Below, one piece after another: positions 3,900 through 19,313 of a DNA stretch of 64,000 nucleotides (the first letter of the stretch is position 1; each line of letters begins with the position of its first letter). The stretch is taken from NCBI GenBank assembly GCA_030605835.1, contig JAUWHO010000027.1:62001-126000 (forward strand), read 5' to 3'. Position numbers and translations under genes: made by a program. Source of the DNA: Candidatus Zixiibacteriota bacterium. Lineage in GTDB: Bacteria > Zixibacteria > MSB-5A5 > DG-27. The notes below the pieces were generated by a model. That model saw only the letters and a program-made list of their open reading frames with translations. It ran no database searches and was not told where the DNA came from.

Positions 3900-4550
3900 C
3901 TAACTAATCACTCCCAACCAATCTCGCATCAGGAAAACGAAGCGTCCAATGAGCAGGGAGACCCTGGCCATCACCGTGAAGCCGAAGGTGGCGCCGAAGC
4001 CGATCATCAGCGTCCAGATGCCGACTTTGGCCACAGCACCGATGGTGCCGCGATGCTCTTTGGAGAAGAAAAAGTAGGTGAGTCCACAGACGACACCGAC
4101 CGCTATCAACACTTCGGAGAAGGAGTCCCAGGAGGCGAAACTGATCTTGACCATGGTCGGCTGTATCTGGCGGATGACGGAGTTCTGGAGGTATTGAACC
4201 AGGGTGGGACCGGCGCCGATCCCGTAGATTAAAGCAATCGGAATGCGGGCGATGTAATTGTACTTCTTCGAGAATCGGAAGAAGAGCAAAAGCCCGATTA
4301 GAACCGGTAGAATCAAAAGGAAAATCCCAAAAGGACCGGGGACTAAATTCCACCTCCCCTGCTTCAGAGGCAAGAAGACCGCGGGCTCTAAGGTCTCCTT
4401 CATAAGTACGACGAACCAGTAACCGGCGGAGACCCCGACGGCGACGTGCTCCGCGAACTTATAGAAGGGGTTGTCCTTATAGAGAAAGGAGAAGATGCAC
4501 AGGGTGAAAAACACCGCCACCCAGACTCCTATATCGGTGCTAATAGGCAT
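3900..4550 (-). CDS. Cassette D gene 4: six-TM membrane protein with SFLYKDNPFYKF motif
   Basis: A 216-residue protein with about six hydrophobic segments. It shares with the products at 8427, 11987 and 15671 an N-terminal IFSFLYKDNPFYKFAEH segment followed by a G-V-S-A-G-Y-W helix, and a C-terminal YFFFSKEHRG loop followed by FGATFGFTVMARVSLLIGR. The acidic and basic residues inside these conserved stretches suggest more than structural packing. No known family is recognised. It is the last gene of the 17-gene operon, 9 bases after gene 3; no clear terminator follows. Function unknown. Confidence 0.8.
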   Translation of the reverse strand: MPISTDIGVWVAVFFTLCIFSFLYKDNPFYKFAEHVAVGVSAGYWFVVLMKETLEPAVFLPLKQGRWNLVPGPFGIFLLILPVLIGLLLFFRFSKKYNYIARIPIALIYGIGAGPTLVQYLQNSVIRQIQPTMVKISFASWDSFSEVLIAVGVVCGLTYFFFSKEHRGTIGAVAKVGIWTLMIGFGATFGFTVMARVSLLIGRFVFLMRDWLGVIS

Positions 4551-4559
4551 AGAGAATTC

Positions 4560-5390
4560 TTACTTCTTCTTTTTATATTGGCCGCTTAAGAAAAAGCCGA
4601 CGTTCCCGACGAGCACAAAAATCACAATCAAGAGGTGGACTATGGATTGAATGTTCATCCCCCGGACGGCCTCCCCGGGCTGGTCTATCAGCTTCTCGTA
4701 TTCAGCCGCCCCCTTCAGGCCGGGAATGATGCCCACAATCTGTCCGGTTTTGAGGTAGTTGTAATAGTCCGCCCCCATGACCGCGGTCACCCCGATGGCC
4801 AGAGGGAAATTGTAGCGTTCCCGGCCGTAGATGATCCAGTATTCGGTCCCGCCGGTGGCATTGACGGTCAAGACCAGTCCTACATCTTTGTAATTCTTCA
4901 CCCCTTTCATCATAGGCAGGGAGTCCAGGGGCGTTCCGTAGAAATCGACCGCGAACGATTGCCGGAAATCCTGTCCCATCGACAGAATAACCGCCGCCGG
5001 ATAGGGACGATAGCCCAGATAGACATAATCCTCCGCGTATTTTTTCCCCATCTGGTCGGCCATATATCTCAGCTCTTTCTCTATTAAGTTGACGCCGGTG
5101 GGATACAGGGCGGTGACGATTACCTTCAGGTTCTTGCGGTAACATTGCCTCAGGATGGCATACAGCATCGGCTCCATCTCCGCCATGACATCGGGGGCAT
5201 ATTCGCAGGGGATGAGGATTCTGCTCCCGTCCGGAAGCGATTCCACTAACTCGTAAACCCGCCTCACCTCCGGGGTAACCTCGAGGGGCAGCTCCACCTT
5301 GACCAAAAGAGGCACAATCACCGAGAGAGAGATGAAAAGGAAGATCACTCTCCGGTCGATTAGAATTAATCTGTCGAAAAATCTCTTCAT
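4560..5390 (-). CDS. Cassette D gene 3: bitopic protein with large extracytoplasmic domain
   Basis: A 276-residue protein. A short N-terminus with LIDRRVIFLF leads into one membrane helix. About 200 residues then carry ITPEVRRVYELVESLPDG, an EYAPDVMAEMEP segment, YVYLGYRPYP, LPMMKGV and GLKGAAEYEKL. A second membrane helix is followed by a lysine-rich tail (KKKK), which the positive-inside rule places in the cytoplasm, so the middle domain should be outside. The same motif order recurs in the paralogues at 9081, 12739 and 16342. I recognise no enzyme family; the alternating strands and helices would fit an alpha/beta domain. The 117-base gap before it contains the hairpin repeat at 5410-5433. 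Confidence 0.8.
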   Translation of the reverse strand: MKRFFDRLILIDRRVIFLFISLSVIVPLLVKVELPLEVTPEVRRVYELVESLPDGSRILIPCEYAPDVMAEMEPMLYAILRQCYRKNLKVIVTALYPTGVNLIEKELRYMADQMGKKYAEDYVYLGYRPYPAAVILSMGQDFRQSFAVDFYGTPLDSLPMMKGVKNYKDVGLVLTVNATGGTEYWIIYGRERYNFPLAIGVTAVMGADYYNYLKTGQIVGIIPGLKGAAEYEKLIDQPGEAVRGMNIQSIVHLLIVIFVLVGNVGFFLSGQYKKKK

Positions 5391-5409
5391 TTATTTCTGG
5401 GCTTCTTGG

Positions 5410-5433
5410 CCGTCAGATGTGGGCATCTGACGG
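5410..5433. repeat. Short palindrome, GATG-TGGG-CATC core
   Basis: CCGTCAGATG (5410-5419) and CATCTGACGG (5424-5433) form a perfect 10-bp stem around a TGGG loop, in the gap between genes 2 and 3 of cassette D. It shares the inner core with 1599-1624. Confidence 0.6.
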
Positions 5434-5507
5434 CACTCAATGAAGCAGACAAGAAATCCGTTCAATCTGCTTAATCTGTTTACCCGCCTCTGGCGTGGCT
5501 GTGAATC

Positions 5508-6155
5508 TCACTCCCCTCCCATATACGACCTCTCGATTCCCAACATCACTTTCAAAGACATGGCGGCAACTCCCAACCCCACCCCGATGACAATGGCCCT
5601 CTTGGCGGCGACATTGGGAACGTATAGAAGCCAGTTGGCGACCTTCGAAAAGAGCCCGAATGATATCACATCCCCGAGAGGCACCCGACCGAGCATGACA
5701 ATGACCGCAGATAAGAGCAGGATGGTGGCGAGGGCGGTCCTGGCCCTGAAGGCCCGATAGGCCGCGGAGGCGATGAAATACGCCAAAAGGGCAAACATGG
5801 TGGCGGAGAGGGGACTGAGGACATTATCGTAGCTCCAGTTGAAGGGACCGATCCACTCCCCGGGCCCCACCTCCCCAAGTTTGGTGGGACCGGTGAAACC
5901 GAAAACGATCATGGCAGTCAGACAAACCAGGGTGACGATGCTGTATCCCCAGCCCGGCTTTCTCCCCCGAGCCTTGCCCCAGTGCAGCTGCCACAAAGAG
6001 ACTATCCCCAAGACCATGGCGAATGCTCCCACAATCTGAAGCCAGACCTGGGAGACCTCGTAGAGGATTTCGAAGGTGCGGTGGGGGATAAAATACTGCA
6101 CCGCTAAGGTGAATGCAGTTATAAAGGTTATGGCTAACGGGAGTTGACGTCGCAT
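5508..6155 (-). CDS. Cassette D gene 2: six-TM membrane protein (MRRQ family)
   Basis: A 215-residue protein starting MRRQLPLAIT and followed by about six hydrophobic helices. Conserved with the paralogues at 9929, 13638 and 17229 are a PH-F segment after helix 1, SATMFALLAYFIASAAYRA-F-RAR, MLGRVPLGD, VPNVAAKRA and the C-terminal MLGIERSYMGG. The AAKR variant of the VPN motif is shared only with cassette C, while A and B have AGQR, which suggests C and D are the closer pair. It starts one base after the PAP2 stop codon. No known family is recognised. Confidence 0.8.
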   Translation of the reverse strand: MRRQLPLAITFITAFTLAVQYFIPHRTFEILYEVSQVWLQIVGAFAMVLGIVSLWQLHWGKARGRKPGWGYSIVTLVCLTAMIVFGFTGPTKLGEVGPGEWIGPFNWSYDNVLSPLSATMFALLAYFIASAAYRAFRARTALATILLLSAVIVMLGRVPLGDVISFGLFSKVANWLLYVPNVAAKRAIVIGVGLGVAAMSLKVMLGIERSYMGGE

Positions 6156-6156
6156 C

Positions 6157-7146
6157 TCAGGCCAGCGGAGCTAAACTGTATTTGGCTCTTTTTCTTCCCC
6201 ACCAATCTTCAATCCTGGGAGCGACGATGAAACTGAATATCGCCAGTATGAAACCGGCAAGCAGATCGACCACATAGTGATGCCTCAGGTAGATGGTCGA
6301 GAGCAGCAAACCGACACAGAAAGGCAGCATTGCCCAGAAGGCCACCTTAGAATACTTCCAGGCAAACATCAGTGACAACAGCGTCACCGCAGAATGCAGA
6401 GAGGGGAAGGCACAACGTGAGTCTGCGTGGAAGATGCTCACAGTTTTGAGAGCCGCATCAGTGATCAAGGCTCCCTGAAAATCTATGTAGAAAAAGGGTT
6501 TCAAGATTATGCGGGGCGGCACCGCCGGAAACAGGATGTAGAGGATATAACCAAGGTAGAAGCAGAAGATGACGCTGAAGAGAGTATAGCGAAATGCCGG
6601 ATATCTTTTCTGAAAGTACAGAACCGCGGCCACGAAGGGGGCGAAGAGAAAGAAAATCATATAGCAGAAGGAAAAAATCTCGGTTAGGGTGGGATGAATG
6701 AATTGTTGCGTCCAGACGCAGGGTTGAGTTCCGAATAGCCACGCGTCCATCTGAATTAAGGTCTCCTGGATGTCGTGGGGATTGACGAAGTGGACGGTGT
6801 CGTGCAGGTTGGTGTATATGGCTATGCAGAAGCCGAAGGGGAGAGCATCCCGAAAAACCCTCCAGTTGGGTTTATACCTGGCGATTAACCATGCCACAAA
6901 GATAGCGAACAAAACCACGAAGAATCTCTGAATCGCACCGACAAAGACATTGGGAATATGTCCGTTCTGGTGGAAGAAGAGATAAGCCTTGAAGGTGAAA
7001 TAGGCCATGGGGAGAAAGAAAAGCAGGGCGACAAACTCCTCCGGTCGCAGAGAGAATATCCGGTATTTGACCCTTCTCCAGAAATTGACTCTGGCCTTGA
7101 CTGTCCCTTCGACGGCACGCTGAACCACGCTCTCGGTCCTATACAT
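6157..7146 (-). CDS. PAP2-superfamily phosphatase, Aur1/inositolphosphotransferase-like
   Basis: A 329-residue polytopic protein. It has the PAP2 residues in the variant typical of the Aur1-like branch: FPAVPPR at about 206-212, FPSLHSA at about 247-253 (in place of PSGH, with the catalytic His251) and LRHHYVVDLLAG at about 287-298 (second histidine and aspartate). Several membrane helices surround them. Family members hydrolyse or transfer phosphate-linked headgroups of lipids at the outer membrane face; yeast Aur1 makes inositol phosphorylceramide. It sits inside cassette D between genes 1 and 2, where the other three cassettes have nothing, with one base between it and gene 2. That placement implies co-translation with the cassette. 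Substrate unknown. Confidence 0.82.
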   Translation of the reverse strand: MYRTESVVQRAVEGTVKARVNFWRRVKYRIFSLRPEEFVALLFFLPMAYFTFKAYLFFHQNGHIPNVFVGAIQRFFVVLFAIFVAWLIARYKPNWRVFRDALPFGFCIAIYTNLHDTVHFVNPHDIQETLIQMDAWLFGTQPCVWTQQFIHPTLTEIFSFCYMIFFLFAPFVAAVLYFQKRYPAFRYTLFSVIFCFYLGYILYILFPAVPPRIILKPFFYIDFQGALITDAALKTVSIFHADSRCAFPSLHSAVTLLSLMFAWKYSKVAFWAMLPFCVGLLLSTIYLRHHYVVDLLAGFILAIFSFIVAPRIEDWWGRKRAKYSLAPLA

Positions 7147-7212
7147 TTCGGATATCTGAATCGGGTCTATTCAAAGGTTGAGTCCATAAGTGAAATGCCA
7201 CCGTTTTAGAGC

Positions 7213-8424
7213 TCAGATGTTGACATTGAACAGATTTATAAACCAGGCGAAGCCGAGAGTGGCCGTGAGTATTCCCAGTCCCACCAAAATCACAATCGCA
7301 AGCTTATTCCAATCCTGCCCTTTGAGAGTTCCCAACTGCACCGGATCTCGGGATAGATAGGCGGAGGCCGCATACAGCTCTTCCCCGATCAGGACGTAAT
7401 CGCAGGCGGCCACGAAGAAGGGGATCTGAATCGGCTCGTCGGTTCCGGCGATCTGGATGGAGCCGGCCAGAAAGCCGGTTTCCGCCAACATCAGAGATTC
7501 GGCGTAGAATTTCCCCAGATAGAAATTGGCGGCGGGTCTCTCCCTCAGCATGATGCCGTTGACGGCGGCGGCATAGGGGAACTGCTCCTGGGTGACGAAG
7601 AATATGTCCTTCTCGTTATAGATATCCGGTCGTCCGACATCCATATAGGCGGATTTGACCACCTCCTGGGATACCACCATCACCATTGGGTAATAGGCGG
7701 GAACGATCAGGCGGGACTGATACTCGGCGGTCTTTCTGGCGACCCGGCCCAGGATCGTAAAGGCGGCGATGGTGGCGACCTCGTATGCCTCCCCCAAACC
7801 GGGGACGAAGAGGATAGGCTGTCCCATCTCGGTGGCCCTGCCGATGGCCTCGTCGACGGCGTTTATCCCCGCCAGGGGACGGATGTAAAGCTTGCCGCCC
7901 CTCTTGGCGTAGCTGATGGCGACAATTATAATGAGGCAAAACAGCAGTGTGGCCACGAAGACCGATGTTTTCCCGGTGTGAAACCACTGTCCCGAGGGTG
8001 TCACCGGCCCGAAGATCTCAGAGACAGCGCTGTCCGTGACCGCGACCGCCCGGCTTTTGTAGTAGTAGTTGTGGGAGTTGACTAAGGCGGTGTCCTGGTC
8101 TGTAAACTCCTTTGTTCCTGCGGGGACACTCCCGACAACTTCAAAAACGCCCTGTAACCCGGTGCTTCTCAAAATCTCATAAGAGAGCACTCCACCTTCA
8201 ACCTTTCCGTCATCAGGTGAAAGGTTCCAATTCAGGGAGATGCTTTTGCCGTGGTCGTTGGGAGTATCCTGGGCGAAGAGTTCGGTCGGAGGGGAGAGGG
8301 GATGCGCCTGCGTGTCCTTCAGGTGGAAATTGAAAAATACGAGGAGAGTGAGACTAAAAAGAATTGCTTTTCGAGAAAACAGGTTACAGCTTCCCCAAAC
8401 AGATTCTTTTTGAGAGTGCCCCAT
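7213..8424 (-). CDS. Cassette D gene 1: signal peptide, FN3 domain, TM, DUF6754-like domain
   Basis: A 403-residue protein. After a hydrophobic signal (ILFSLTLLVFFNF) comes one fibronectin type III domain with the ISLNWNLSPDDG strand and YYYKSRAVA strand, then a membrane helix, then a cytosolic domain with AVDEAIGRATEMGQPILF, VVKSAYMDVGRPDIY, EQFPYAAAVNGIM, FYLGKFYAESLML, CDYVLIGEELYAASAYLS and a C-terminal helix. The start is ATG at 8422-8424: a longer reading to 8811 only overlaps cassette C gene 4, whereas this ATG lies two bases after that gene's stop and has a GTTGAGG ribosome site. The domain resembles what I remember as DUF6754; not verified. Confidence 0.82.
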   Translation of the reverse strand: MGHSQKESVWGSCNLFSRKAILFSLTLLVFFNFHLKDTQAHPLSPPTELFAQDTPNDHGKSISLNWNLSPDDGKVEGGVLSYEILRSTGLQGVFEVVGSVPAGTKEFTDQDTALVNSHNYYYKSRAVAVTDSAVSEIFGPVTPSGQWFHTGKTSVFVATLLFCLIIIVAISYAKRGGKLYIRPLAGINAVDEAIGRATEMGQPILFVPGLGEAYEVATIAAFTILGRVARKTAEYQSRLIVPAYYPMVMVVSQEVVKSAYMDVGRPDIYNEKDIFFVTQEQFPYAAAVNGIMLRERPAANFYLGKFYAESLMLAETGFLAGSIQIAGTDEPIQIPFFVAACDYVLIGEELYAASAYLSRDPVQLGTLKGQDWNKLAIVILVGLGILTATLGFAWFINLFNVNI

Positions 8425-8426
8425 CC

Positions 8427-9050
8427 TCAACTTCCGAACAGGGCGATGAAATACTCTCTCAAAAAGATGATTCTCTGCACCAAGAGGGCCACACGCCCCA
8501 TGACCGTCAAACCGAAGGAGGCCCCGAAGCCGGCCATCAAGGTGTAGATCCCCACTTTGGACAACCCTCCGAAAGTTCCCTTGTGCTCCTTGGAGAAGAA
8601 GAAGTAGAACAGGGTGCATGTTACGAAGCTCACCATCAACAGGCTGTTCAGTCCCAGCCAGCTGAACTGTAAGGGCACCACCGTAGCCTGCAGCTGTCTG
8701 AAGACGTAGTTGTACATGTAGAGTGGAAGTGCCACCCCGGTGCCGACCCCGATGTAGAAGGCGATCGCAATCCTGGATAAGTAGGCCAGCTTCTTGGAGA
8801 AGCGAGTCCACATCATTATCCCCATGATGGTGGGCAGTATATAGTGCAGCTTACCCTGCTGAAATATGGGGATCAACACCTTGTCGGTGAAGGTGGTGTG
8901 ATACAGAAGCATGGTCCAGTAACCCAAAGCCACCCCGGCCACCAACTGCTCCGCGAATTTGTAGAAGGGATTATCCTTGTAAAGGAACGAGAAGATACAC
9001 AGCGTCAGAAAGGCCGCCAACCCGTTCCACAGAAGTTCTACCGTCGTCAT
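8427..9050 (-). CDS. Cassette C gene 4: six-TM membrane protein with SFLYKDNPFYKF motif
   Basis: A 207-residue polytopic protein, the shortest of the four paralogues. It keeps IFSFLYKDNPFYKFAEQ, G-V-A-L-G-Y-W, YFFFSKEHKG and FGASFGLTVMGRVALLVQR, but the last motif reads VQR rather than the IGR/VGR of the other three. Its stop codon is two bases from the start of cassette D, so cassettes C and D are translationally adjacent. That spacing is the strongest local evidence that the four cassettes form one operon. Confidence 0.8.
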   Translation of the reverse strand: MTTVELLWNGLAAFLTLCIFSFLYKDNPFYKFAEQLVAGVALGYWTMLLYHTTFTDKVLIPIFQQGKLHYILPTIMGIMMWTRFSKKLAYLSRIAIAFYIGVGTGVALPLYMYNYVFRQLQATVVPLQFSWLGLNSLLMVSFVTCTLFYFFFSKEHKGTFGGLSKVGIYTLMAGFGASFGLTVMGRVALLVQRIIFLREYFIALFGS

Positions 9051-9080
9051 CTATCTTTTCCTCCAGATAACCTGCAAAGC

Positions 9081-9902
9081 TTATTTCTTGCTCCGCCGGG
9101 AGGCGAAATATCCGATGTTGCTCACTATGATGAAGGCCAAGATGACCACATGGGTTGTGGTCTGATAGGGAATGCTCTTTAAGCCCTCCCCCTTATATTC
9201 GGTCAAGGCCTCGTATTCGGCCGCTCCCTTTATGCCGGAAATCAAGCCAAAGATCTGCCCCGATTGGAGATAAGGATAGTAGTCTGCGGCCATCACCCCG
9301 GTGACCCCCAAAGCCAAGGGCATGAAGTAACGCCCGTAGCCGTATATGATCCAGAATTCGGAGCTGGTTCCGGCGCTCAAGGAGATCACCCCCTTCAGAT
9401 CATCGAAGTTGTGGACATAGCGCATCATCGGGATGGAATCTATGGGGGTGCCGTAGTAGTCCTGAGGGAAGGGAACCCGGAAATCGACCCCCATCAGCAT
9501 GATGGTGATGGCAGGATAGGGTTTGTATCCCAGATAGCAGTAGTCGATTCCCGATTCCTTGCCGTATTCGGCGGCGACCTCGCTTAAGACCTGCTCCGCC
9601 ATCCCGGCCCCGAACTGAGACAGGGTCGCCACTACCGGCTTGATATCTTTGCGGAAGCACTGGTCCAGGATGGCATAGGCCATGGGGTGCAGCTCCGCCA
9701 GGGAAGCGGGATCGTAGTCGATGCCAACGTAGAATATGTCCCCGGGCTTTAAGTCCTCTATGAAGTCGTAGACCCGCCTCACCTCCGGGGTGACGTTGAC
9801 GGGAACGTGAAAACTCACCACCGCCGGTACGATTACGGCCACTCCCAGGATCAGATAGATCCAGCGGCGGTCGATATTGAGCATCTTTTCGTGCCATTTC
9901 AT
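9081..9902 (-). CDS. Cassette C gene 3: bitopic protein with large extracytoplasmic domain
   Basis: A 273-residue paralogue of the products at 4560, 12739 and 16342. The N-terminal motif is changed to IDRRWIYLI, followed by one membrane helix; then VTPEVRRVYDFI, DYDPASLAELHPM, YCYLGYKPYP, IPMMRYV, GIKGAAEYEAL and a C-terminal helix. The conserved Asp-Tyr-Asp and Glu-Leu-x-Pro positions recur in nearly every copy and would be candidates for a metal or ligand site, but this is only inference from conservation. It sits 30 bases before gene 4 and 26 after gene 2. Confidence 0.8.
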   Translation of the reverse strand: MKWHEKMLNIDRRWIYLILGVAVIVPAVVSFHVPVNVTPEVRRVYDFIEDLKPGDIFYVGIDYDPASLAELHPMAYAILDQCFRKDIKPVVATLSQFGAGMAEQVLSEVAAEYGKESGIDYCYLGYKPYPAITIMLMGVDFRVPFPQDYYGTPIDSIPMMRYVHNFDDLKGVISLSAGTSSEFWIIYGYGRYFMPLALGVTGVMAADYYPYLQSGQIFGLISGIKGAAEYEALTEYKGEGLKSIPYQTTTHVVILAFIIVSNIGYFASRRSKK

Positions 9903-9928
9903 CTTTATTTCTCCTCTACCGTCGCCGG

Positions 9929-10549
9929 TTAATCTCTACCCAGGTAGGTTCGTTCAATCCCCAGGATAATCTTTATGCAGGTGGCAATAGCTCCCAGGCC
10001 GATCCCGATCAGAAGGCCCCTCTTGGCGGCCATATTGGGAACCGAGAGTATCCAGCCCACCAATGCCTGGTTGACGTCGGAGATGGGACCCAAGGGGATC
10101 AGACGGAGCATCACGATGAAGGCGGTTCCTAGAAGCATGGTTGCTATTACACTTCTGGCCCTGAAAGCTCGATAGGCTGCGGAGGCGATGTAGAAGGCCA
10201 AAAGGGAGAAGATGGTGGCCTGAATCGGGATCAGGACGTATTCGAACAGCTCCATGTAGAGGCTACCGGCCATCAGGCTCTCCCGCTTCAGCCCGGTTAG
10301 CATCATGATGGCGAAGCCGAACAGGGAGACCCCGGCGAAGAACCTCTCCTTGGGCTTTTTAACCGCCGTCAGCCAGGTCTTTCTCAGGTAGCTCCAGATC
10401 CCCAGGGGGAGAGCTAAAATCCCGATCACCATCACCCAGTCCTGTCCGTATTCGAAGATAAACTCCGATTCGTGGCTGGGGATGAAGAACTGGATGACGA
10501 ACACAATTCCGCAGACCAACACTATATATAAAGGGATTTGTCTACGCAC
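9929..10549 (-). CDS. Cassette C gene 2: six-TM membrane protein (MRRQ family)
   Basis: A 206-residue protein, the shortest of its family. It starts MRRQIPLYIV, and has SAAYRA-F-RARSVIAT, a shortened loop before LIPLGP (the other copies have GRVP or GRTP here), VPNMAAKRG and ILGIERTYLGRD. The loss of the GR-P residues is a real difference from the other three copies and may mark divergence of function. It follows gene 1 by 12 bases. Confidence 0.8.
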   Translation of the reverse strand: MRRQIPLYIVLVCGIVFVIQFFIPSHESEFIFEYGQDWVMVIGILALPLGIWSYLRKTWLTAVKKPKERFFAGVSLFGFAIMMLTGLKRESLMAGSLYMELFEYVLIPIQATIFSLLAFYIASAAYRAFRARSVIATMLLGTAFIVMLRLIPLGPISDVNQALVGWILSVPNMAAKRGLLIGIGLGAIATCIKIILGIERTYLGRD

Positions 10550-10561
10550 ATTAACCTCCAG

Positions 10562-11800
10562 CTATGAAATCGTGGAAATCAGACTCTTGAAGAAACCCCA
10601 ACCGAAGCTCCAGGTGATGACTGCCAGCCCCAAGAGCGTCAAGAGAATCACCTTGGCGTAGTCCTGGGCTTTGACCGGCCCCAAAAGCAGCGCCTCCTTT
10701 GAAAGGTAGCCGGAGGCGGCGTAAAGCTCCTCCCCGATCAGGGTGTAGTCGGTGGCGGCAATGAAGAAGGGCAGCTGCGCCAGCTGGTCGGTTCCCGAGA
10801 TCTGGATGGCACCGGTGATGGCCCCGGTCTCGGCCAAGATCAACGATTCAGCGTGGAAGATGCCCATGTAGAAGTTGGTGGCGGTCTGTTCCCGGATCAT
10901 GAGCCCGCAGACCGCGGCCACGAAGGGGAACTGCATGGCGGTCACATAAAAGATGTTCTGCTCGTCATACATGTCCGGCCGCCCAGCCTCCATGTATGCG
11001 CTTTTGACGGTCTCCTGAGCCACCGCCAGCATCACCGGCTCGTTCACCGGCACCAGCACTTTGGTCTGATAGTCGGCGGTCATCTTGGCCACCCGTGCCA
11101 GAATGGTGTAACCGGCAATGGTGGCTAAGTCGGCGGCGGTTCCGGTTCCGAGGACGAAGAGTATCGGCCGTCCCATCTCGGTGGCTCTCCCGATGGACTC
11201 ATCCACGGCATCGATTCCCGCAATGGGACGGACGTAGAGCTCCTTCCCCCTCTTGGCGGCGGTGATGAAGTAAATCACCAGGCCCGAGAAAATCAGGACC
11301 GCAATCATGATGTTGGTTTTGCCGGTGTGATACCAGTTGTTTTTCGCCTGGCCGACGACGAGCTCAGAGAACTCGGAGTAAGTCCCGGTGGTGCTTTTGG
11401 CCCGCATCTTATAGTAATAGTCTATGCCGGCGCCGATATAGCGGGGGTTGGGCTCGCCGTTTCTGGTCTTCTCCTTTTCCCCCCGATCGATATAGGAGTC
11501 TAGACCTTTGCCCATCACTCCCACCTGCAGGAACTCCCCCTCCGGAGATGTTGAGCGGAAGATCTCGTAGGCCATGACGTTGTTCAGCCCGGCCCCATCA
11601 TCTCTGGAGAGCTGCCAGCTGACGATGGTGGTGTGTCCATCGTCATTGGGATCATCGGAGATGACCACATTTGTGGGAGGAGCCGGCAAAGGTTCAGGGG
11701 GTGCTTCTAATTCCTGTCCCGGTGAGGAGATGTAGCCAAACAAAAGCAAGACCGAGGCAGAAATCAGAATAAGTGCCAATCGGATCTTGAATCTTATCAT
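10562..11800 (-). CDS. Cassette C gene 1: signal peptide, FN3 domain, TM, DUF6754-like domain
   Basis: A 412-residue protein. The N-terminal hydrophobic segment (LALILISASVLLLFGYI) is followed by a proline-rich linker and an FN3 domain with DDPNDDGHTTIVSW at its start, a membrane helix (IMIAVLIFSGLVIYFIT) and the cytosolic domain with AVDESIGRATEMGRPILF, ETVKSAYMEAGRPDMY, FYMGIFHAESLILAETG and TDYTLIGEELYAASGYLS. The cysteine of the CDY motif found in the other three copies is threonine here. A 186-base gap separates it from cassette B; I see no convincing promoter or terminator in it. Confidence 0.82.
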   Translation of the reverse strand: MIRFKIRLALILISASVLLLFGYISSPGQELEAPPEPLPAPPTNVVISDDPNDDGHTTIVSWQLSRDDGAGLNNVMAYEIFRSTSPEGEFLQVGVMGKGLDSYIDRGEKEKTRNGEPNPRYIGAGIDYYYKMRAKSTTGTYSEFSELVVGQAKNNWYHTGKTNIMIAVLIFSGLVIYFITAAKRGKELYVRPIAGIDAVDESIGRATEMGRPILFVLGTGTAADLATIAGYTILARVAKMTADYQTKVLVPVNEPVMLAVAQETVKSAYMEAGRPDMYDEQNIFYVTAMQFPFVAAVCGLMIREQTATNFYMGIFHAESLILAETGAITGAIQISGTDQLAQLPFFIAATDYTLIGEELYAASGYLSKEALLLGPVKAQDYAKVILLTLLGLAVITWSFGWGFFKSLISTIS

Positions 11801-11986: not shown

Positions 11987-12742
11987 TCATTGAAGCAATC
12001 CCATCCAATCCCCGAGCAAAAACCTCATTCTCCCGACCAGCAGGGAGATACGAGCCATCACGGTGTAACCGAAGCTGGCTCCGAATGTAATCATCAAGAT
12101 ATAGATTCCCACCCGGGAGGCAACTCCGAAGAGCCCCTTGTGCTCCTTGGAGAAGAAGAAGTATATCAGCCCACAAAGGACTCCCACGACAATCACTATG
12201 TTAGAAAACGAACCCCCCACGGAGAGAGAGCCGTTTTCGACGACAATCACGGGAATCAGGGTGCTTTTAATCTGTCCCAAAAAATCGCTTCGCAGGTAGC
12301 GAACCAGGTTCAGTCCGGTGGTGGTCCCCACAATGAAGGCCAAAGCCCAGCGGGAGATCCATGGGGCTTTGGGCGAAAGCCGCATCAAAAACATTATCCC
12401 CAGAGCTGCGGGGATGATATACCAGTATTCGGGAGGCTTTTCCGCAATCGCGGGCAGGACGCCTTTGACAATGGGAGGGTGAAGCTTGGCGATGAGGTTG
12501 GGAACCAGGGTGTTCCAGAATCCCATGCACATCCAGTAAGCCGCCGACACCCCCACGAAAAGATGCTCCGCGAATTTGTAGAAGGCATTGTCCTGATAAA
12601 GGAAGCTTAAGATCGCTAAGGTCAAAAAGGCTCCGATCCAGACCAAAAGATCGGTGGAGATAGCTTTGACTCCCCAGTTGAGAAGATACAGAAGCCCGAA
12701 GAACAGGATTCCGGCAAAAAGCCAGACTAAATCCTTCCTCAT
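11987..12742 (-). CDS. Cassette B gene 4: membrane protein with SFLYQDNAFYKF motif
   Basis: A 251-residue protein, longer than its paralogues because of an extra N-terminal hydrophobic segment (LVWLFAGILFFGLLYLL), giving about seven helices. The conserved first motif is varied to SFLYQDNAFYKFAEHLF; the C-terminal YFFFSKEHKG and FGASFGYTVMARISLLVGR motifs are intact. It overlaps gene 3 by four bases (ATGA), so the two are translationally coupled. If the extra helix is real, the N-terminus may face the other side of the membrane than in copies A, C and D. Confidence 0.78.
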   Translation of the reverse strand: MRKDLVWLFAGILFFGLLYLLNWGVKAISTDLLVWIGAFLTLAILSFLYQDNAFYKFAEHLFVGVSAAYWMCMGFWNTLVPNLIAKLHPPIVKGVLPAIAEKPPEYWYIIPAALGIMFLMRLSPKAPWISRWALAFIVGTTTGLNLVRYLRSDFLGQIKSTLIPVIVVENGSLSVGGSFSNIVIVVGVLCGLIYFFFSKEHKGLFGVASRVGIYILMITFGASFGYTVMARISLLVGRMRFLLGDWMGLLQ

Positions 12743-13641
12743 TTTATGACTCCGCCCTCCCTCTTTTCCCCTTCCTCCCTTTTCCTTCCGATGAAGAAGG
12801 TGATGTTACCGATCACGATGAAGAAAACAATGACGATGTGTGCCACCGTCTGGGGACCCATCATGTCAATTGCGGGGTGGGAGTGAGTCTTGAACTTGGG
12901 ATATCCCTTAATCAGGGCGGATTCGTATTCCGCGGCGCCCTTGATTCCACCCAAGAGCCCCAGAAGCTGTCTGGGATAATAGGGATAGAGTAGTGGTGCC
13001 GACACCGCGGTGGCTCCGCCGGCCACCGGGATATTCCCGGGGTCACCACCGAACAGCACCCACTCCTTAATCCCCGGAAAACCTCCGCCCATCGATAGAA
13101 TCAAGTCAAAGCTCTTCAGATTGCGGATGTCGACCATCATCGGGACGGCGTCGATTTCAGAGCCGCGGGCATCGGTGGTGTACATCTTCTTCATGTCAGT
13201 CAAAATGACGTTTATGAGCCCCTGGTTACCCGCCTTGTAGCCCAAGTTGACATAATCGACACCGTAAATCTTATGGGGGAACTCCTTTTCGATGATGTCC
13301 TGCATGCTCTCGGAGATCAGATTGTGACCGGTGCCCCATAGTGCCATCATATACATCTTCAGATTCTTCTCACAAGAGTGACGCAGCAGAGCGTCTATCA
13401 TCGGCTGAACTTCTGGCACCGTCGAGGGTCCGTAATCAAATGATATCAGAACCTTGGAGCCTTCCGGGAGGGATTCGATTTCGTCGTAGACCGCCTGCAC
13501 GATGGGGGTGGCCTCCTCGGTGCAGGAGAAGCTCAAAAGCACCGGAATAATGACCGCAAAGCCGATGAAAAGGAAAATCACCCGGCGGTCGATATTGGCT
13601 ATGGTCTCAAAGAAACCCATCTTGGGATTGTCAGGATTCAT
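12739..13641 (-). CDS. Cassette B gene 3: bitopic protein with large extracytoplasmic domain
   Basis: A 300-residue protein, the longest of its family. It has IDRRVIFLFIGFAVIIPVLL as the first membrane helix, then an EEATPIVQAVYDEIESLPEG region, DYGPSTVPEVQPM, YVNLGYKAG, VPMMVDI, GGIKGAAEYESAL, a second membrane helix and a highly charged tail of about 15 residues rich in Arg, Lys and Glu. YVNLGY is shared with copy A, whereas C and D have YCYLGY and YVYLGY. Both ends overlap the neighbouring genes by four bases. Confidence 0.8.
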   Translation of the reverse strand: MNPDNPKMGFFETIANIDRRVIFLFIGFAVIIPVLLSFSCTEEATPIVQAVYDEIESLPEGSKVLISFDYGPSTVPEVQPMIDALLRHSCEKNLKMYMMALWGTGHNLISESMQDIIEKEFPHKIYGVDYVNLGYKAGNQGLINVILTDMKKMYTTDARGSEIDAVPMMVDIRNLKSFDLILSMGGGFPGIKEWVLFGGDPGNIPVAGGATAVSAPLLYPYYPRQLLGLLGGIKGAAEYESALIKGYPKFKTHSHPAIDMMGPQTVAHIVIVFFIVIGNITFFIGRKREEGEKREGGVIK

Positions 13642-14321
13642 TCGCTATCAGCACCCAAATAGGTTCTTTCAACGCCTAAGATTACTCTTAAAGCCATTGC
13701 AATTACACCCAGGGCAATCCCGACCATGATTGCCCGTTGTCCCGCCATGTTGGGGACTGACATTATCCAGCTGGCAAGATTGGGAATCTCCAAGAATGAC
13801 AGCGGATCCGGCAGCCAGCTGGTCAATTCCACCCCGAAGGGAGTTCTCCCCAAAAGGATCACAAACGCCGCCAGAAGCAAAACCGTTGCCTCCTTGTTCT
13901 TTGCCCGGAAGGCCCGGTGGGAGGCGGAGGCCACATAAAACGCCAGAAGTGCAAACATGGTCGCCATCAGGGGAGTGAACACATACATATACAGGTCTTC
14001 GAACATGCTTCCCGGCTCGGTCAAATCCCCAGTAATACCCGGAGAACCACCGATTTTGAAAAGACCGGCGATCATCATCACCGTAAACCCCGCCACCGTC
14101 ACCACCGAGTAAGGCCAGTCCTTGTGCTTCTTATAAATACGATTGCCGTGAACCCGCAATAGATTGCCTGCCCCCAGTATGAAGGCGAAGACCGCAATAA
14201 TGTCGAAATAGACGGAGAAATTCTCCCCCAGCTGACCGAACGGCTTGTGGGGAATGAAAACCGATATAATCAGGACGGAGCCGACGATAAAAGTTATAAC
14301 AACTGGAATCTGTCTGCGCAT
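13638..14321 (-). CDS. Cassette B gene 2: six-TM membrane protein (MRRQ family)
   Basis: A 227-residue protein with the family motifs MRRQIPVVIT, IPHKPF, SATMFALLAFYVASASHRAF in slightly varied form, LLGRTPFG, VPNMAGQRA and ILGVERTYLG. The loop between the GR-P motif and the VPN motif is extended, as in copy A. The last codons overlap gene 3 by four bases. Six helices are expected, with the R-AF-RAK charged patch at a cytoplasmic helix end. Confidence 0.8.
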   Translation of the reverse strand: MRRQIPVVITFIVGSVLIISVFIPHKPFGQLGENFSVYFDIIAVFAFILGAGNLLRVHGNRIYKKHKDWPYSVVTVAGFTVMMIAGLFKIGGSPGITGDLTEPGSMFEDLYMYVFTPLMATMFALLAFYVASASHRAFRAKNKEATVLLLAAFVILLGRTPFGVELTSWLPDPLSFLEIPNLASWIMSVPNMAGQRAIMVGIALGVIAMALRVILGVERTYLGADSE

Positions 14322-14357
14322 AAGAGTCTATCGCTTCTTTGATGAATTCATCTGAGC

Positions 14358-15578
14358 CTAACTCGCAACAATCGAGAACAGTTTGTGCACAAGCTCCGCC
14401 AGAGAACCGAAGAAACTGCTCCCGCTGATGGCAAAGAAGGTCTCCAGCAAGGCTCCGATCACTATCGCCGACATCGCAATTATCTTTCCGACATCCTGTC
14501 CTTTCAGGGAACCGAGTTGCTTCGGCTCCCCGGAAAGATAAGCGGAGGCCGCAAAGAGTTCCTCCCCGATCAAGGTATAATCGCAGGCGGCCACGAAGAA
14601 AGGCAACTGTGCCGGCATCGCCGTTCCCGCAATCTGGATGGCGCCGATGGCGTTGCCGGTCTCCGCCATAATGAGCGACTCTGCAAAGAAGGCCCCAATG
14701 TAGAAGCACGTCGCGGGCCTTTCCCTCACCATTATGCCATTGACGGCGGCGACGTACCCGAACTGCTCATCGGTGACGTAGTGGACGAAATCGTCGGAGT
14801 AGGCATCGGCACGGCCCGCGGAAATATAAGCCTCCTTGACGGTCTCCATGGCAGTGGACATCACTATGGAGCGGGAGGTGGGGACGTTCAGTTTGGTGTC
14901 GTATTGAGCAATGGTCTTGGCCACTCGACCCAGGATGGTTATCGCGGCAATGGTCTGGACATCGTCCATATCTAAGATTCCGGGGATGAAAAGGATGGGG
15001 CGACCCATCTCCGTCGCCCTGCCGATGGCCTCATCTACTGCCTCCAGTCCGGCAATCTTTCTCAAAAACAGCTTTTTTCCCTTCTTGGCGTGGGCGATGA
15101 AATAGATGACGGCTCCGCAGATCAGTCCCCCGATGATGAGGAGGTTCAACAGATGAAAATTGAACCACTGCGGAGAAGAACGAGCTGGAGGCGACAGCTC
15201 CGATTCGGAGACATTCTTGTCCACGTCGATGGCGAGAACCTTGTAATAATAGGTCAGGGAGTCTTCGGTGTTGGCGTCGACATACCTGTTGCTGCCGGCG
15301 GCGGCGAAGCCGATGGAGGAGAACTCTCCCGTGGGAGAGGTAGAGCGGACTATCTCATAGCCTGTGACTCCTCTATCCTCATCGGGGGAGAGCTTCCAGC
15401 GGACGATAATGGCAGCTCCGGCATCACCGGGGTGGTCTTCAGCGATTACCTCGGAGGGAGGTAAGAGAGGAGAAAGGAGACTATCACTGCTTTCTACCTG
15501 GGCTAAGCCATCCGTTGTCGCTAGGAGAATTAAGCCTAATAAGCAATAGAATGTGAAGCTATAGCTGAATGCTTTCAA
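14358..15578 (-). CDS. Cassette B gene 1: signal peptide, FN3 domain, TM, DUF6754-like domain
   Basis: A 406-residue protein, apparently started by TTG at 15576-15578 without a strong ribosome site. It has a signal peptide (FYCLLGLILLATTDGLAQ), an FN3 domain with AEDHPGDAGAAIIVRW and YYYKVLAIDVD, a membrane helix and the cytosolic domain with AVDEAIGRATEMGRPILFIP, METVKEAYISAGRADAY, EQFGYVAAVNGIMVRERPAT and CDYTLIGEELFAASAYLS, then a C-terminal hydrophobic segment. It is closest to copy A, with which it shares SRS-VM and the LGSLKGQDVGK string. Confidence 0.82.
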   Translation of the reverse strand: MKAFSYSFTFYCLLGLILLATTDGLAQVESSDSLLSPLLPPSEVIAEDHPGDAGAAIIVRWKLSPDEDRGVTGYEIVRSTSPTGEFSSIGFAAAGSNRYVDANTEDSLTYYYKVLAIDVDKNVSESELSPPARSSPQWFNFHLLNLLIIGGLICGAVIYFIAHAKKGKKLFLRKIAGLEAVDEAIGRATEMGRPILFIPGILDMDDVQTIAAITILGRVAKTIAQYDTKLNVPTSRSIVMSTAMETVKEAYISAGRADAYSDDFVHYVTDEQFGYVAAVNGIMVRERPATCFYIGAFFAESLIMAETGNAIGAIQIAGTAMPAQLPFFVAACDYTLIGEELFAASAYLSGEPKQLGSLKGQDVGKIIAMSAIVIGALLETFFAISGSSFFGSLAELVHKLFSIVAS

Positions 15579-15670
15579 TACACTTGTTTTACTGTGGCTT
15601 CTTTGCTGACGGCAGTCCTACGGTGGACCTCCAACCTTTTCTTCGCAAACCCGAAACGGGTATCGTTGAA

Positions 15671-16342
15671 TTACTTTACCAGCCCCAGCCAGGTGCCGAA
15701 GAGGAAATCTATTCTGCCGATGAGAAGCGACATCCGCGACATCACCGTATATCCGAAGGAGGCTCCGAAGGTTATCATCAAGAAGTATATCCCCACCTTG
15801 GCGGCGCCGCCGAAGACTCCTTTGTGTTCCTTGGAGAAGTAGAAATATATGATTCCGGTGACGGTGCCGACGATCAGTACCAAATTATTGAAGGAATTCA
15901 AAGGCAGGATGGTATGCTCCAGCTGACTCATGGCGTTGGACTGGAAGTAGGTGATGAAGTAAAGCCCGGCGCTGGAGCCGACCGTGAACGCCAGAGGCCA
16001 ACGCGCAATCCAACCGATCTTGGGGCTCAGCCTCAGAAGCATCATCACCCCTAAAACCCCCGCGATCAGATACAACAGGTTATCATCCAATCTTCCCTCA
16101 AGGAAGAGTGCCTGCAGAGCTCCCTCGGGGGCGTTTTCGGCTCCCACCAGTTTGGTTATGCCCAGATTATCGAAGAGCTTGGGCAAAAGGTTTGCATAAT
16201 ATTGTTGAACGAACCAATATCCGGCTGAGACTCCGATGAAGAGCGATTCGCAGAATTTATAGAGAGGATTGTCCTTATACAGAAACGAGATGATCCCGAT
16301 CGTCAAAATTGCCGCAATAGTGTGTGAGAAGACAGAATCCAT
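15671..16342 (-). CDS. Cassette A gene 4: six-TM membrane protein with SFLYKDNPLYKF motif
   Basis: A 223-residue polytopic protein. The first motif reads IISFLYKDNPLYKFCES, with Cys in place of the Ala found in the other copies; the second half has YFYFSKEHKG and FGASFGYTVMSRMSLLIGR. The start ATG shares its A with the TGA stop of gene 3, so translation is coupled. A 92-base gap with no obvious signal precedes cassette B. Confidence 0.8.
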   Translation of the reverse strand: MDSVFSHTIAAILTIGIISFLYKDNPLYKFCESLFIGVSAGYWFVQQYYANLLPKLFDNLGITKLVGAENAPEGALQALFLEGRLDDNLLYLIAGVLGVMMLLRLSPKIGWIARWPLAFTVGSSAGLYFITYFQSNAMSQLEHTILPLNSFNNLVLIVGTVTGIIYFYFSKEHKGVFGGAAKVGIYFLMITFGASFGYTVMSRMSLLIGRIDFLFGTWLGLVK

Positions 16343-17193
16343 CAGCCGGTCTTCTTTTCCTCTCTACCTCTGGTGACGAAATACGCGAGGTTTCCAATTA
16401 TTATGAAGAACACCACAATCATATGGGCAAACGACTGCGAGAGCATAAACTTCGTCCCCTTGCCGATGAAACCGGTCAGTTTCTCGAACTCGGCGGCTCC
16501 CTTCATCCCCCCGGAAAGCCCGGTGAGCTGTCCGGTGCCGATGTAGGGATAGACCAAGGGGGCCTGGACGGCGGTATTGGCGGCTCCCATCCTGGCGTGG
16601 AAGCGGTCCACCGCAAACTGCACCCACTCCACGGTGCCGGGGTAGCCGGCGGAGAGATTAAAGACGTAATCGAAGTTGCTGAAGTTCACGATCCCCCGCA
16701 TCAGGGGAATCTCCTCAATCGAGGTTCCTCGAAAATCGCGCGGGAAGGTAGCGGGGATGCTGGAGCCCATCCTCTGGATGACCAGCTCGTTTCCGGGAGA
16801 GTAACCGAGGTTGACGTAATCCACCCCGTAGATCGGTTCCTTGTCAAAATAGTTTTCCTCACTGAAGACGGTCTCCAATGCCAAATTCGCCTGCATCGGA
16901 CCCATCGGCCACAGCCCGATTATTATCACCTTCAAGTTCCGGTCGAAACATAAACGCAGGCCGGTGATGGCCTGAGGTTGAAGCTCCGGGGCGCTGGGCG
17001 GGTCGTAGTCAAACGCCATCAAGACCTTGGAACCGGGGGGAAGCTCCATAAAGGCATCATAGAGGGTCTGAACCTCCGGAGTAATCTCGATCGTCTGTTC
17101 GATGTCCAGAAACAGTGGAACGATGAGCGCCACGCCGACGAAGAGGAAGATCACCCGCCGGTCAATGCTCATCAGTTTTTCGAAGAACTTCAA
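16342..17193 (-). CDS. Cassette A gene 3: bitopic protein with large extracytoplasmic domain
   Basis: A 283-residue protein: SIDRRVIFLFVG into the first helix, EITPEVQTLYDAFMELPPG, DYDPPSAPELQPQ, a CFDRNLKVIIIGLWPMGP strand region, YVNLGYSPG, IPLMRGI, GGMKGAAEFEKL, and a second helix before a short basic tail. The central region has the regular hydrophobic strand / polar helix rhythm of an alpha/beta fold. It lies 35 bases after gene 2 and touches gene 4. Confidence 0.8.
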   Translation of the reverse strand: MKFFEKLMSIDRRVIFLFVGVALIVPLFLDIEQTIEITPEVQTLYDAFMELPPGSKVLMAFDYDPPSAPELQPQAITGLRLCFDRNLKVIIIGLWPMGPMQANLALETVFSEENYFDKEPIYGVDYVNLGYSPGNELVIQRMGSSIPATFPRDFRGTSIEEIPLMRGIVNFSNFDYVFNLSAGYPGTVEWVQFAVDRFHARMGAANTAVQAPLVYPYIGTGQLTGLSGGMKGAAEFEKLTGFIGKGTKFMLSQSFAHMIVVFFIIIGNLAYFVTRGREEKKTG

Positions 17194-17228
17194 AGAAGAC
17201 TCCTCCGAGACTAATCGCTTAACTTCCC

Positions 17229-17882
17229 TTATTCCCCTCCGGTGATGGTCCTCTCAATTCCTAAAATCACCCTCAGGGAGGTCGACATTATCCCCAGCGC
17301 AATGCCGATCATAATCGCCCGCTGTCCCGCCATGTTGGGGACCATCATTATCCAGCCCGCCAGATCCGAGAGCCGATACCCCTGGGGCAACCAAGAGGTC
17401 ATGAGGTCCCCCACCGGAACCCTCCCCAGCATCACGAAAAACCCCGCCAAAAGAAGCAGAGTTGCCTCGAATGTTCTGGCCCGAAAGGCTCTGTAGGAGG
17501 CTGACGCTACAAAGAATGCCAGAAGGGCAAACATCGTCGCCGAGAGGGGGGTGAATATATTCACGTAAATGTAGTCAAATGCCGTCCCCGATTCCTGAAA
17601 AGCACGTCCGCCGGAGAAAAAGAATCCAGCGACGGTTATCATGAAGAACCCACAGATGATCACAAGGGCATAGGGCCAGTCCTTCGCCCTCTTGTAAACT
17701 TTCTCCGAGCTGAGTTTCAACAGATTCAAAACTCCCAGCCAGATGGCGCAGGCGGCGATGATTAGAATCCAATCGGTGAAGAGGTGCTCGATGATATTGA
17801 AGGGTTTGTGGGGGACGAAAAACTGGATGATATAAACAAACCCAACGATAGCGGTCAAGAGCAGCGGAACCTGTCTTCTCAT
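17229..17882 (-). CDS. Cassette A gene 2: six-TM membrane protein (MRRQ family)
   Basis: A 217-residue protein with MRRQVPLLLT, VPHKPF, SASYRAFRARTFEATLLLL, MLGRVPVGD, VPNMAGQRAIMIGIALG and the C-terminal VILGIERTITGGE. The ending differs from the ERTYLG of copies B and C. Nine bases separate it from gene 1. The basic MRRQ start and the RAFRAR cluster would both be cytoplasmic in a six-helix N-in model. Confidence 0.8.
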   Translation of the reverse strand: MRRQVPLLLTAIVGFVYIIQFFVPHKPFNIIEHLFTDWILIIAACAIWLGVLNLLKLSSEKVYKRAKDWPYALVIICGFFMITVAGFFFSGGRAFQESGTAFDYIYVNIFTPLSATMFALLAFFVASASYRAFRARTFEATLLLLAGFFVMLGRVPVGDLMTSWLPQGYRLSDLAGWIMMVPNMAGQRAIMIGIALGIMSTSLRVILGIERTITGGE

Positions 17883-17891
17883 AATCTATCC

Positions 17892-19082
17892 CTACTGCAC
17901 TCTGAAGAGCTGAGCGAAATTGAAAAGACCGAAAGAGTGAACGATCACGCCTATGAGAATCGCCAAAAGGATCACGACCTTGCCGACATCCTGCCCCTTG
18001 AGACTGCCCAGAAGTTTCGGCTCCTTCGAAAGATAGGCGGAGGCGGCAAAAAGCTCCTCCCCGATCAGGGTGTAATCACATGCGGCCACGAAGAAGGGCA
18101 GCTGCGCCGGCATCGCGGTCCCTGCAATCTGAATGGCGCCGATGTAGTTGCCGGTCTCCGCTAAGATCAGCGACTCCGCGAAGAAGGCTCCCTGATAGAA
18201 AATCGTGGCCGGTTTCTCCCGGACGATAAGCCCGTCCACACCGGCGGCGTAGCCGAACTGCTCGTCGGTGAGGTAATGAATCGCATCCTCTTTGTAGGCA
18301 TCCGGTCGACCGGCATTTAAGTAAGCCTCCTTCACCGTCTCCCGACAGGCGACCATGACCATGGAACGGGAGACCGGGATCTCCAGTTGAGCATCGTATT
18401 CGGCGACGAGCTTGGCAACTCGCCCTAAGATTATCACCCCGGCGATGGTCTGGAGGTTATATATGTCCTGAATGCCGGGGATGAAGAATATCTTCCTGCC
18501 CATCTCGGTGGCTCTGCCCACGGCTTCATCCACCGCCTCCAGGCCGGCGATCTTTCGGATGTAAAGTTTCTTGCCGGATTTGGCCCGGTTTATGAAGAAA
18601 AGGATCGCCAGACCTATTATCAAACAACCTATGAGGGTATTTATCCTGCCGGTATGAAACCACTGCTGCTTACTTTGAGCCGGGGGGGAAGCCTCGGAAT
18701 CGGAGTAGAGGTCTCCTCTCACTGCTCTGATTCTATAAGTATACTCGACCCCATCCCTGGCCTCGTTGTCGAAGGTCTCCTCCGCGCCGGCAGGAGCATC
18801 TGCAGTTTGCTGGAACTCTCCCCGGGGGTAGATGGCGCGCAAAATCTTATACCCCGCGAAGAGGCTGTCGTCTGGTCTATCATCCGGTGATTTCTTCCAG
18901 CGGATGGTGATCGAGCTTCCGGCGTCGTTGGGAGTGTCAAAGGCGACAACTTCGGTGACCGGAGCCGGCGGTGTGGTTGTGATGTCAGCCGATTCGGTTT
19001 GCGCGATTAAGGTAGGAGAGAAAAGGAGCAGACAGATCAGAGTGAAGTATTTCTTTTGGTTTCTGAGTTTTCCAGTTGCCAC
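17892..19082 (-). CDS. Cassette A gene 1: signal peptide, FN3 domain, TM, DUF6754-like domain (first gene of the operon)
   Basis: A 396-residue protein beginning with GTG at 19080-19082 behind a GGCGAGAGTGAA ribosome site. Order: signal peptide (YFTLICLLLFSPTLIAQ), FN3 domain (AFDTPNDAGSSITIRW ... YTYRIRAVRG), membrane helix (TLIGCLIIGLAILFFIN), cytosolic domain (AVDEAVGRATEMGRKIFFIP, ETVKEAYLNAGRPDAY, EQFGYAAGVDGLI, CDYTLIGEELFAASAYLS) and a C-terminal hydrophobic segment. It is the first gene after a long leader with an intrinsic terminator (19119-19154) and a promoter at 19285-19313, so its expression may set that of all 17 genes. Confidence 0.82.
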   Translation of the reverse strand: MATGKLRNQKKYFTLICLLLFSPTLIAQTESADITTTPPAPVTEVVAFDTPNDAGSSITIRWKKSPDDRPDDSLFAGYKILRAIYPRGEFQQTADAPAGAEETFDNEARDGVEYTYRIRAVRGDLYSDSEASPPAQSKQQWFHTGRINTLIGCLIIGLAILFFINRAKSGKKLYIRKIAGLEAVDEAVGRATEMGRKIFFIPGIQDIYNLQTIAGVIILGRVAKLVAEYDAQLEIPVSRSMVMVACRETVKEAYLNAGRPDAYKEDAIHYLTDEQFGYAAGVDGLIVREKPATIFYQGAFFAESLILAETGNYIGAIQIAGTAMPAQLPFFVAACDYTLIGEELFAASAYLSKEPKLLGSLKGQDVGKVVILLAILIGVIVHSFGLFNFAQLFRVQ

Positions 19083-19118
19083 TACTTCACTCTCGCCAAC
19101 AGTAGCAGTGTTCGATCA

Positions 19119-19154
19119 CAAAAAAACCATTGGGAGGTGGTCATTCCCAATGGT
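19119..19154 (-). terminator. Intrinsic terminator in the leader of the cassette operon (possible attenuator)
   Basis: Read on the minus strand, ACCATTGGGA (19154-19145) pairs with TCCCAATGGT (19135-19126), a perfect 10-bp stem with a 9-base loop, followed at once by a T7 run. No complete gene ends here; the hairpin lies about 37 bases upstream of the first cassette gene and about 125 bases downstream of its promoter, as in attenuated leaders. Confidence 0.75.
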
Positions 19155-19155
19155 G

Positions 19156-19242
19156 TTAGAACCGAAACAAGCAGGACAAAATCCTTATCCCGGTGTCGAA
19201 ATTGACTTGTCGTTTTGAGGTGTTAGTTCCTGCTTTTCTCAC
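19156..19242 (-). other. Possible 28-codon leader peptide ORF
   Basis: A GTG at 19240-19242 opens a 28-residue frame (MRKAGTNTSKRQ...ILSCLFRF) whose TAA stop at 19156-19158 is two bases from the terminator stem. A ribosome at the stop would cover the 5' arm of the stem. There is no good ribosome site, so this may be chance. The same RNA also has an AAGCAGGA/TCCTGCTT pairing (19228-19235 with 19169-19176). Confidence 0.3.
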
Positions 19243-19284
19243 GTAAGCCAATCAACTAAGCCGCATGGTCTCAGATTTCCGCAA

Positions 19285-19313
19285 AATCTAGGCAAAAGAG
19301 TCGGCGATGTCAA
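19285..19313 (-). promoter_or_regulatory. Sigma70-like promoter of the 17-gene cassette operon
   Basis: On the minus strand TTGACA (19313-19308), a 17-base spacer and TAGATT (19290-19285). The predicted start of transcription is near 19278, giving a leader of about 195 bases before the first gene. Confidence 0.7.

Follow-up and report, generated by a model that had tools for sequence, protein, structure and literature searches.

What do four consecutive copies of the same four membrane-protein genes build, and do they build it alone? The question is raised by a 64,000-nucleotide stretch (hereafter the window) of a 2.68-Mb draft genome of a Candidatus Zixiibacteriota bacterium, in which four tandem cassettes of genes 1, 2, 3 and 4 occupy positions 3900-19082 of the minus strand. 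As far as gene content and gene order can show, genes 1-4 travel as a unit, two further genes that we call M and P accompany the DUF6754 domain of gene 1 almost wherever it is found and in many phyla stand at the head of its operon, and the tandem copies are of great age and have kept their positions in the array. We consider it highly probable that M, P and genes 1-4 constitute one functional system.

Each cassette has the gene order 1-2-3-4, as the initial annotation had proposed, and all 16 of the genes concerned were confirmed as open reading frames (ORFs), including the ATG at 8424 (Table 1). A seventeenth gene, which had been counted but given no place in the scheme, is a PAP2_3 gene (6157-7146) inside cassette 4. 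The family motifs that had been quoted are real. Junctions between genes are tight, but overlaps are fewer than had been suggested: only three junctions overlap (by 1 and 4 bp), and the remaining gaps are mostly below 120 bp, with one of 186 bp. Gene 1 of every cassette matches the whole of DUF6754 (PF20539), and the four window copies and a fifth on contig C34, which is paired with gene 2 and lacks genes 3 and 4, score 357-415 bits against a gathering score of 27; in the search of this genome the gene 1 copies reach 364-415 bits. This family name carries no function, and Pfam is silent under it on genes 2-4, M and P. Identity to the first copy is 45-59% for gene 1, 40-55% for gene 2, 37-43% for gene 3 and 43-51% for gene 4; the closest named relative is the Zixibacteria metagenome-assembled genome (MAG) DG_27, at 85% identity in gene 1. 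A promoter scan found 11 sites where 11 were expected and carries no weight.

A scan of contigs from one genome per species yielded at least 560 confirmed relatives, and 79 loci were kept for analysis. By the organism labels of the database records, whose bins may hold errors, these loci come from Zixibacteria, Latescibacterota, WOR-3/Stahlbacteria, Eisenbacteria, Coatesbacteria, Gemmatimonadota, a Caldithrix-labelled MAG, Fermentibacterota/Aegiribacteria, TA06, Edwardsbacteria, Cloacimonadota, Poribacteria and Planctomycetota, together with single deltaproteobacterial and acidobacterial MAGs. PF20539 is present in all 58 sampled genomes of the Zixibacteria class, at two to six copies each, and absent from 14 of 14 well-known control genomes. 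Among the matches listed, the order 1-2-3-4 is common to about 14 phyla, and it is complete in 153 of 177 unique cassettes, some of the remainder being cut by contig ends. Because the window holds four ordered homologous sets and the same order recurs in those 153 cassettes, chance is ruled out. Tandem cassettes occur mainly in Zixibacteria; most other phyla carry one. That the four families belong together, as first proposed, is upheld by this shared order and by gene 3, which is present in 80 of 80 DUF6754-positive planctomycetes tested, even where M-P-1 or P-1-2 alone adjoin. The further suggestion of constant sets of four holds for the nearly invariant order but not for contiguity: genes 1 and 2 stand as a pair on C34, and some planctomycetes combine M-P-1 with a gene 3 at another place.

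M and P emerged as recurrent neighbours when the ORFs flanking cassettes were clustered. In Fermentibacterota, Planctomycetota, Gemmatimonadota, Coatesbacteria and Zixibacteria we observed an operon of the form [U R] M P 1 2 3 4, where U and R are two small genes that often precede M. The window's genome encodes M, P, R and U as single copies on another contig (C6), so local synteny alone would have missed these partners. Across the class, P is found in 55 of 58 genomes and MutL, the family of M, in 56 of 58, nearly always once, as against two to six copies of DUF6754; among the DUF6754-bearing genomes behind the loci of other phyla, P is present in 28 of 28. The co-occurrence of DUF6754 and P in 244 Planctomycetota is nearly one to one, with both in 77 genomes, DUF6754 alone in 5, P alone in 1 and neither in 161 (Fisher test, 3e-56; the genomes are related, so the counts are not independent events). 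Judged by these patterns of presence, M and P are obligate partners of the cassette, encoded elsewhere in the window's genome. The initial view of a cassette as one complex therefore stands insofar as genes 1-4 form a unit, but they are not the whole system, since M and P are also needed. Further, divergent M-P fusion paralogues of about 840-1030 residues exist in several genomes, and we therefore conclude that M and P work together.

M, a protein of about 610 residues, matches the MutL/GlmL family of methylaspartate mutase accessory proteins (PF13941) over the full 450-position profile (8.7e-129, 430 bits). Its acetate and sugar kinase/Hsc70/actin (ASKHA) motifs are all intact: phosphate-1 (ATDCGSTTTKA), phosphate-2 (VDIGGATTD) and adenosine (GSGGvLSHAP). 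Unlike GlmL, M has an extra C-terminal part, lies in an operon with membrane genes, and scores below the NCBIfam GlmL equivalog cut-off (232 bits against 475) and also below that for Or-4. In a search confined to the C6 locus, no glutamate mutase subunit gene (glmS or glmE) neighbours M, and no relative of M was found among solved structures. P, of about 380 residues, appears to combine a barrel-sandwich domain of the biotinyl/RnfC/NqrA kind with a KOW-like tail. It matches no Pfam, NCBIfam or PADLOC family over cut-off; weak matches among 22 members are to Biotin_lipoyl (17), RnfC_N (12; best E-value 1.9e-5), NQRA_N (5; best 0.006) and KOW (4), and solved structures give weak matches to RNA polymerase beta-prime and SPT5-KOW.

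The copies are old. In a FastTree phylogeny of 154 concatenated cassettes (1103 columns), clades follow position in the tandem: the first copy falls in A1, the clade of first copies, the second in A2, that of second copies, and the third and fourth in B, that of last copies, and each clade spans many families of the class. Deep supports are mixed, and we make no claim on the order of the oldest splits. Tested gene by gene, the closest relative from a different genome shared the position type in 81/81, 81/81, 82/82 and 80/80 cases, or 324 of 324 tests; the cassettes have therefore been copied and passed on as complete units, with no mixing detected. The phylogeny agrees with the earlier proposal of old duplications that were retained. 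Between the window's genome and one from another family of the class (G016), M is 79.4% identical and the ATP synthase beta subunit AtpD 79.6%, with P at 70% and genes 1-4 at 54-65%. Against a planctomycete (G059), M of the window's genome is 64% identical, for which the comparator is an AtpD identity of 65% between a third Zixibacterium and the same planctomycete. M is level with AtpD and is therefore under housekeeping-level constraint.

Neither Pfam nor NCBIfam has a model that gene 2, 3 or 4 matches above cut-off (Pfam gives weak single matches, such as CapC), and profile-profile comparison finds genes 1-4, M and P mutually unrelated; homology of gene 1 with gene 3, or of gene 2 with gene 4, was considered and rejected for want of support in that comparison. 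PADLOC models of anti-phage defence are matched by none of genes 1-4, P or M. An AlphaFold2 model of gene 1 (predicted local distance difference test, pLDDT, 89.8) comprises an N-terminal helix, an FN3 domain, a transmembrane (TM) helix, a three-layer alpha/beta domain that is DUF6754, and a second TM helix; that of gene 3 (pLDDT 94.0) places an alpha/beta domain between two TM helices. Charge bias predicts that the DUF6754 domain is cytosolic and the gene 3 domain extracytoplasmic. FN3 is supported by both profile and fold and is present in most gene 1 proteins; short-form copies do not have it.

Our preferred reading, held tentatively, is that the cassettes are paralogous inner-membrane modules of one ATP-driven machine. 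M would bind and hydrolyse ATP in the cytosol, and P would dock M onto the Rossmann-like DUF6754 domain of gene 1. Proteins 2 and 4, with their several TM helices, could then relay the conformational cycle to the FN3 and gene 3 Rossmann-like domains outside the cytoplasm, with the outcome that a cell-envelope component is moved or installed. Modules A1, A2 and B would work on one M-P engine, probably differing in substrate or partner, and lineages with a single cassette would use one module. That the system transports its substrate is plausible, and we hold it with reserve. RnfC and NqrA belong to membrane ion pumps as peripheral subunits, and a pump or transporter is the first guess because P weakly resembles them and because multi-TM and bitopic subunits are mixed, as in Rnf and Na+-NQR, with a peripheral protein that in P is a putative barrel-sandwich one. 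By analogy, this resemblance is one of likeness and not of membership: P has no invariant or nearly invariant cysteine and hence no Fe-S cysteine motifs, Pfam scans of genes 2, 3 and 4 meet no RnfA/D/E/G-type subunit or other Rnf/Nqr membrane family, and an ATPase replaces the redox subunits. ABC transporters and Tol/Exb energisers likewise have features in common with this system, either membrane modules served by an NTPase in the cytosol or neighbours that are conserved, but genes 1-4, M and P carry no ABC ATPase or ABC permease domain over cut-off and the components no MotA/TolQ/ExbB or ExbD domain; for gene 2, 12 of 37 members show no more than a weak likeness to TMD0_ABC. The broader proposal is more doubtful. 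It would make this a new class of primary ATP-driven membrane machine, core to much of the FCB (Fibrobacterota-Chlorobiota-Bacteroidota) and PVC (Planctomycetota-Verrucomicrobiota-Chlamydiota) groups, in which the motor would be an ASKHA (MutL-type) ATPase and not of the ABC, P-type, rotary or AAA+ kind, and positionally fixed paralogous modules would share one engine.

Several observations weigh against an ATP-driven transport machine. Genes 2, 3 and 4 show no recognisable transporter family, ASKHA ATPases are not known to power transport directly, and the best-known relatives of GlmL are accessory proteins of B12 enzymes. Foldseek searches of the PDB returned no match below E 0.001 for gene 3, and for gene 1, searched with its FN3 domain included, the listed matches were dominated by FN3, its only solved relative. 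The M-P fusion paralogues are not adjacent to cassettes, and neighbours outside the operon vary by lineage. In favour of a transport-type machine we count two Cloacimonadota loci (L197:4486-9362, +; L198:8049-12928, -) in which the gene for a 980-residue M-P fusion comes immediately after genes for MalF/MalG-like sugar permeases, which are uncommon company for an ASKHA ATPase.

The strongest rival, which we regard as unlikely, makes M-P a chaperone or reactivase that would use ATP to assemble or repair an enzyme formed in the membrane by 1-4, with the cassettes as isoenzymes. GlmL, EutA and the diol-dehydratase reactivases are thought to act in this manner. The place of M in the GlmL family, by PF13941 and by NCBIfam GlmL-family matches, argues for it, as do the many invariant acidic residues of gene 1 and the Rossmann-like prediction for the soluble domains of genes 1 and 3, a fold common among enzymes. 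However, the predictions put those two domains on different sides of the membrane, genes 1-4 hold no known catalytic family, no metabolic enzyme is conserved in linkage, and M stays under the GlmL equivalog cut-offs.

Less likely again is a structural scaffold that would organise the envelope or the site of division. M would then be an organiser switched by ATP, in the manner of FtsA or PilM in other systems, and FN3 and the extracytoplasmic domain would contact partners in the cell wall or outer membrane. The ASKHA fold of M, the FN3 of most gene 1 proteins and the ATP-synthase-like conservation would suit such a role, and an M-P fusion adjoins mraZ-ftsI-ftsW in one planctomycete, with Tol/Exb genes nearby in WOR-3 and Fermentibacterota. 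These neighbour links are lineage-specific, though, FN3 is missing from the short forms, and multiple fixed paralogous modules are better explained by specialised substrates.

The initial annotation had left a choice between four related complexes and a hetero-assembly. That the four cassettes form one obligatory hetero-assembly, such as a ring of related subunits, is improbable. The A1-A2-B order is fixed across the class and no exchange between positions is detected, but copy number there varies from two to six with some members encoded elsewhere. With a single cassette in most other phyla, an assembly of four cannot be required in general. Related complexes on one M-P engine fit better.

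That the machine transports or modifies ceramides is very improbable. Genes for serine palmitoyltransferase (spt) and a ceramide-synthase-like GNAT protein do occur close to cassettes or to M-P in members of three Zixibacteria families (the window's genome, G017/G048 and G051) and two Latescibacterota, and the PAP2_3 gene of cassette 4 is closest to the NCBIfam model for phosphoinositol dihydroceramide synthase (score far below cut-off), but the GNAT gene occurs in 10 of 82 DUF6754-positive against 65 of 162 negative Planctomycetota. A general sphingolipid role, suggested by local synteny, is refuted by these 244 genomes, and a lineage-specific role alone remains. The tendency of the GNAT gene and DUF6754 toward mutual exclusion in Planctomycetota may reflect lineage structure only. 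Among the other cassettes retrieved, none had a gene like PAP2_3 next to it.

Table 1. Cassette genes of the window and the inserted gene
Feature	Position	Strand	Evidence
Cassette 1 (type A1; 19082-15671), gene 1: signal/TM, FN3, TM, predicted cytosolic DUF6754 domain, TM	17892..19082	-	PF20539, FN3, AlphaFold2 pLDDT 89.8
Cassette 1, gene 2: six-TM protein	17229..17882	-	
Cassette 1, gene 3: TM, predicted extracytoplasmic Rossmann-like domain, TM	16342..17193	-	AlphaFold2 pLDDT 94, charge distribution
Cassette 1, gene 4: polytopic membrane protein, FSKEHKG motif	15671..16342	-	
Cassette 2 (type A2; 15578-11987), gene 1	14358..15578	-	PF20539
Cassette 2, gene 2	13638..14321	-	
Cassette 2, gene 3	12739..13641	-	
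Cassette 2, gene 4	11987..12742	-	
Cassette 3 (type B; 11800-8427), gene 1	10562..11800	-	PF20539 9.5e-109
Cassette 3, gene 2	9929..10549	-	
Cassette 3, gene 3	9081..9902	-	
Cassette 3, gene 4	8427..9050	-	
Cassette 4 (type B; 8424-3900), gene 1, ATG at 8424	7213..8424	-	PF20539 2e-117, start checked
PAP2_3 gene between genes 1 and 2 of cassette 4	6157..7146	-	Pfam 8e-22
Cassette 4, gene 2	5508..6155	-	
Cassette 4, gene 3	4560..5390	-	
Cassette 4, gene 4	3900..4550	-	

Several neighbouring genes deserve record. A ceramide-type locus beside the cassettes (window 319-1452, +; C31:61064-62260, equal to L007:11065-12261, +; L007:9881-10864, -) holds a serine palmitoyltransferase-like gene (570 bits, cut-off 640), a ceramide-synthase-type GNAT gene and one for an NAD-dependent epimerase. 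FG-GAP/FlgD-Ig proteins adjoin cassettes on both contigs (window 20483-22321, +; L006:63-3119, +) and end in sorting-type C-terminal tails (Por_Secre_tail, CHU_C). Elsewhere in Zixibacteria (L141:2395-10028, -), an M-P fusion lies beside genes resembling those for a biotin ligase, a biotin-dependent carboxylase and an OadB-like Na+ pump subunit. The glycine cleavage genes gcvT, H, PA and PB stand upstream of U-R-M-P in Fermentibacterota (L106:1447-6070), and gcvP-like ORFs stand near R-M-P at two other loci (L178 and L182).

The initial annotation knew of no described system with this layout, and profile searches place genes 2, 3 and 4 in no known transporter or secretion complex. In the open-access literature, which left subscription literature and preprints outside the search, no paper found names DUF6754 or PF20539, GlmL is not named as a family or accessory protein, and searches for GlmL/MutL gave nothing on the system. 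The system is undescribed in the literature covered and may have been described elsewhere.

Apart from the ATPase M, this system is represented in databases only by a domain of unknown function, and genome-wide co-occurrence now yields a defined parts list: M, P, 1, 2, 3 and 4, often with R and U. In Planctomycetota the system is patchy, so that culturable relatives that have it and others that lack it are at hand for genetics. As a system of six to eight genes, it occurs in every sampled genome of the Zixibacteria class and in many other phyla, and because it is so widely present and its ATPase evolves as slowly as the ATP synthase beta subunit, we infer that it serves a central task of the cell.

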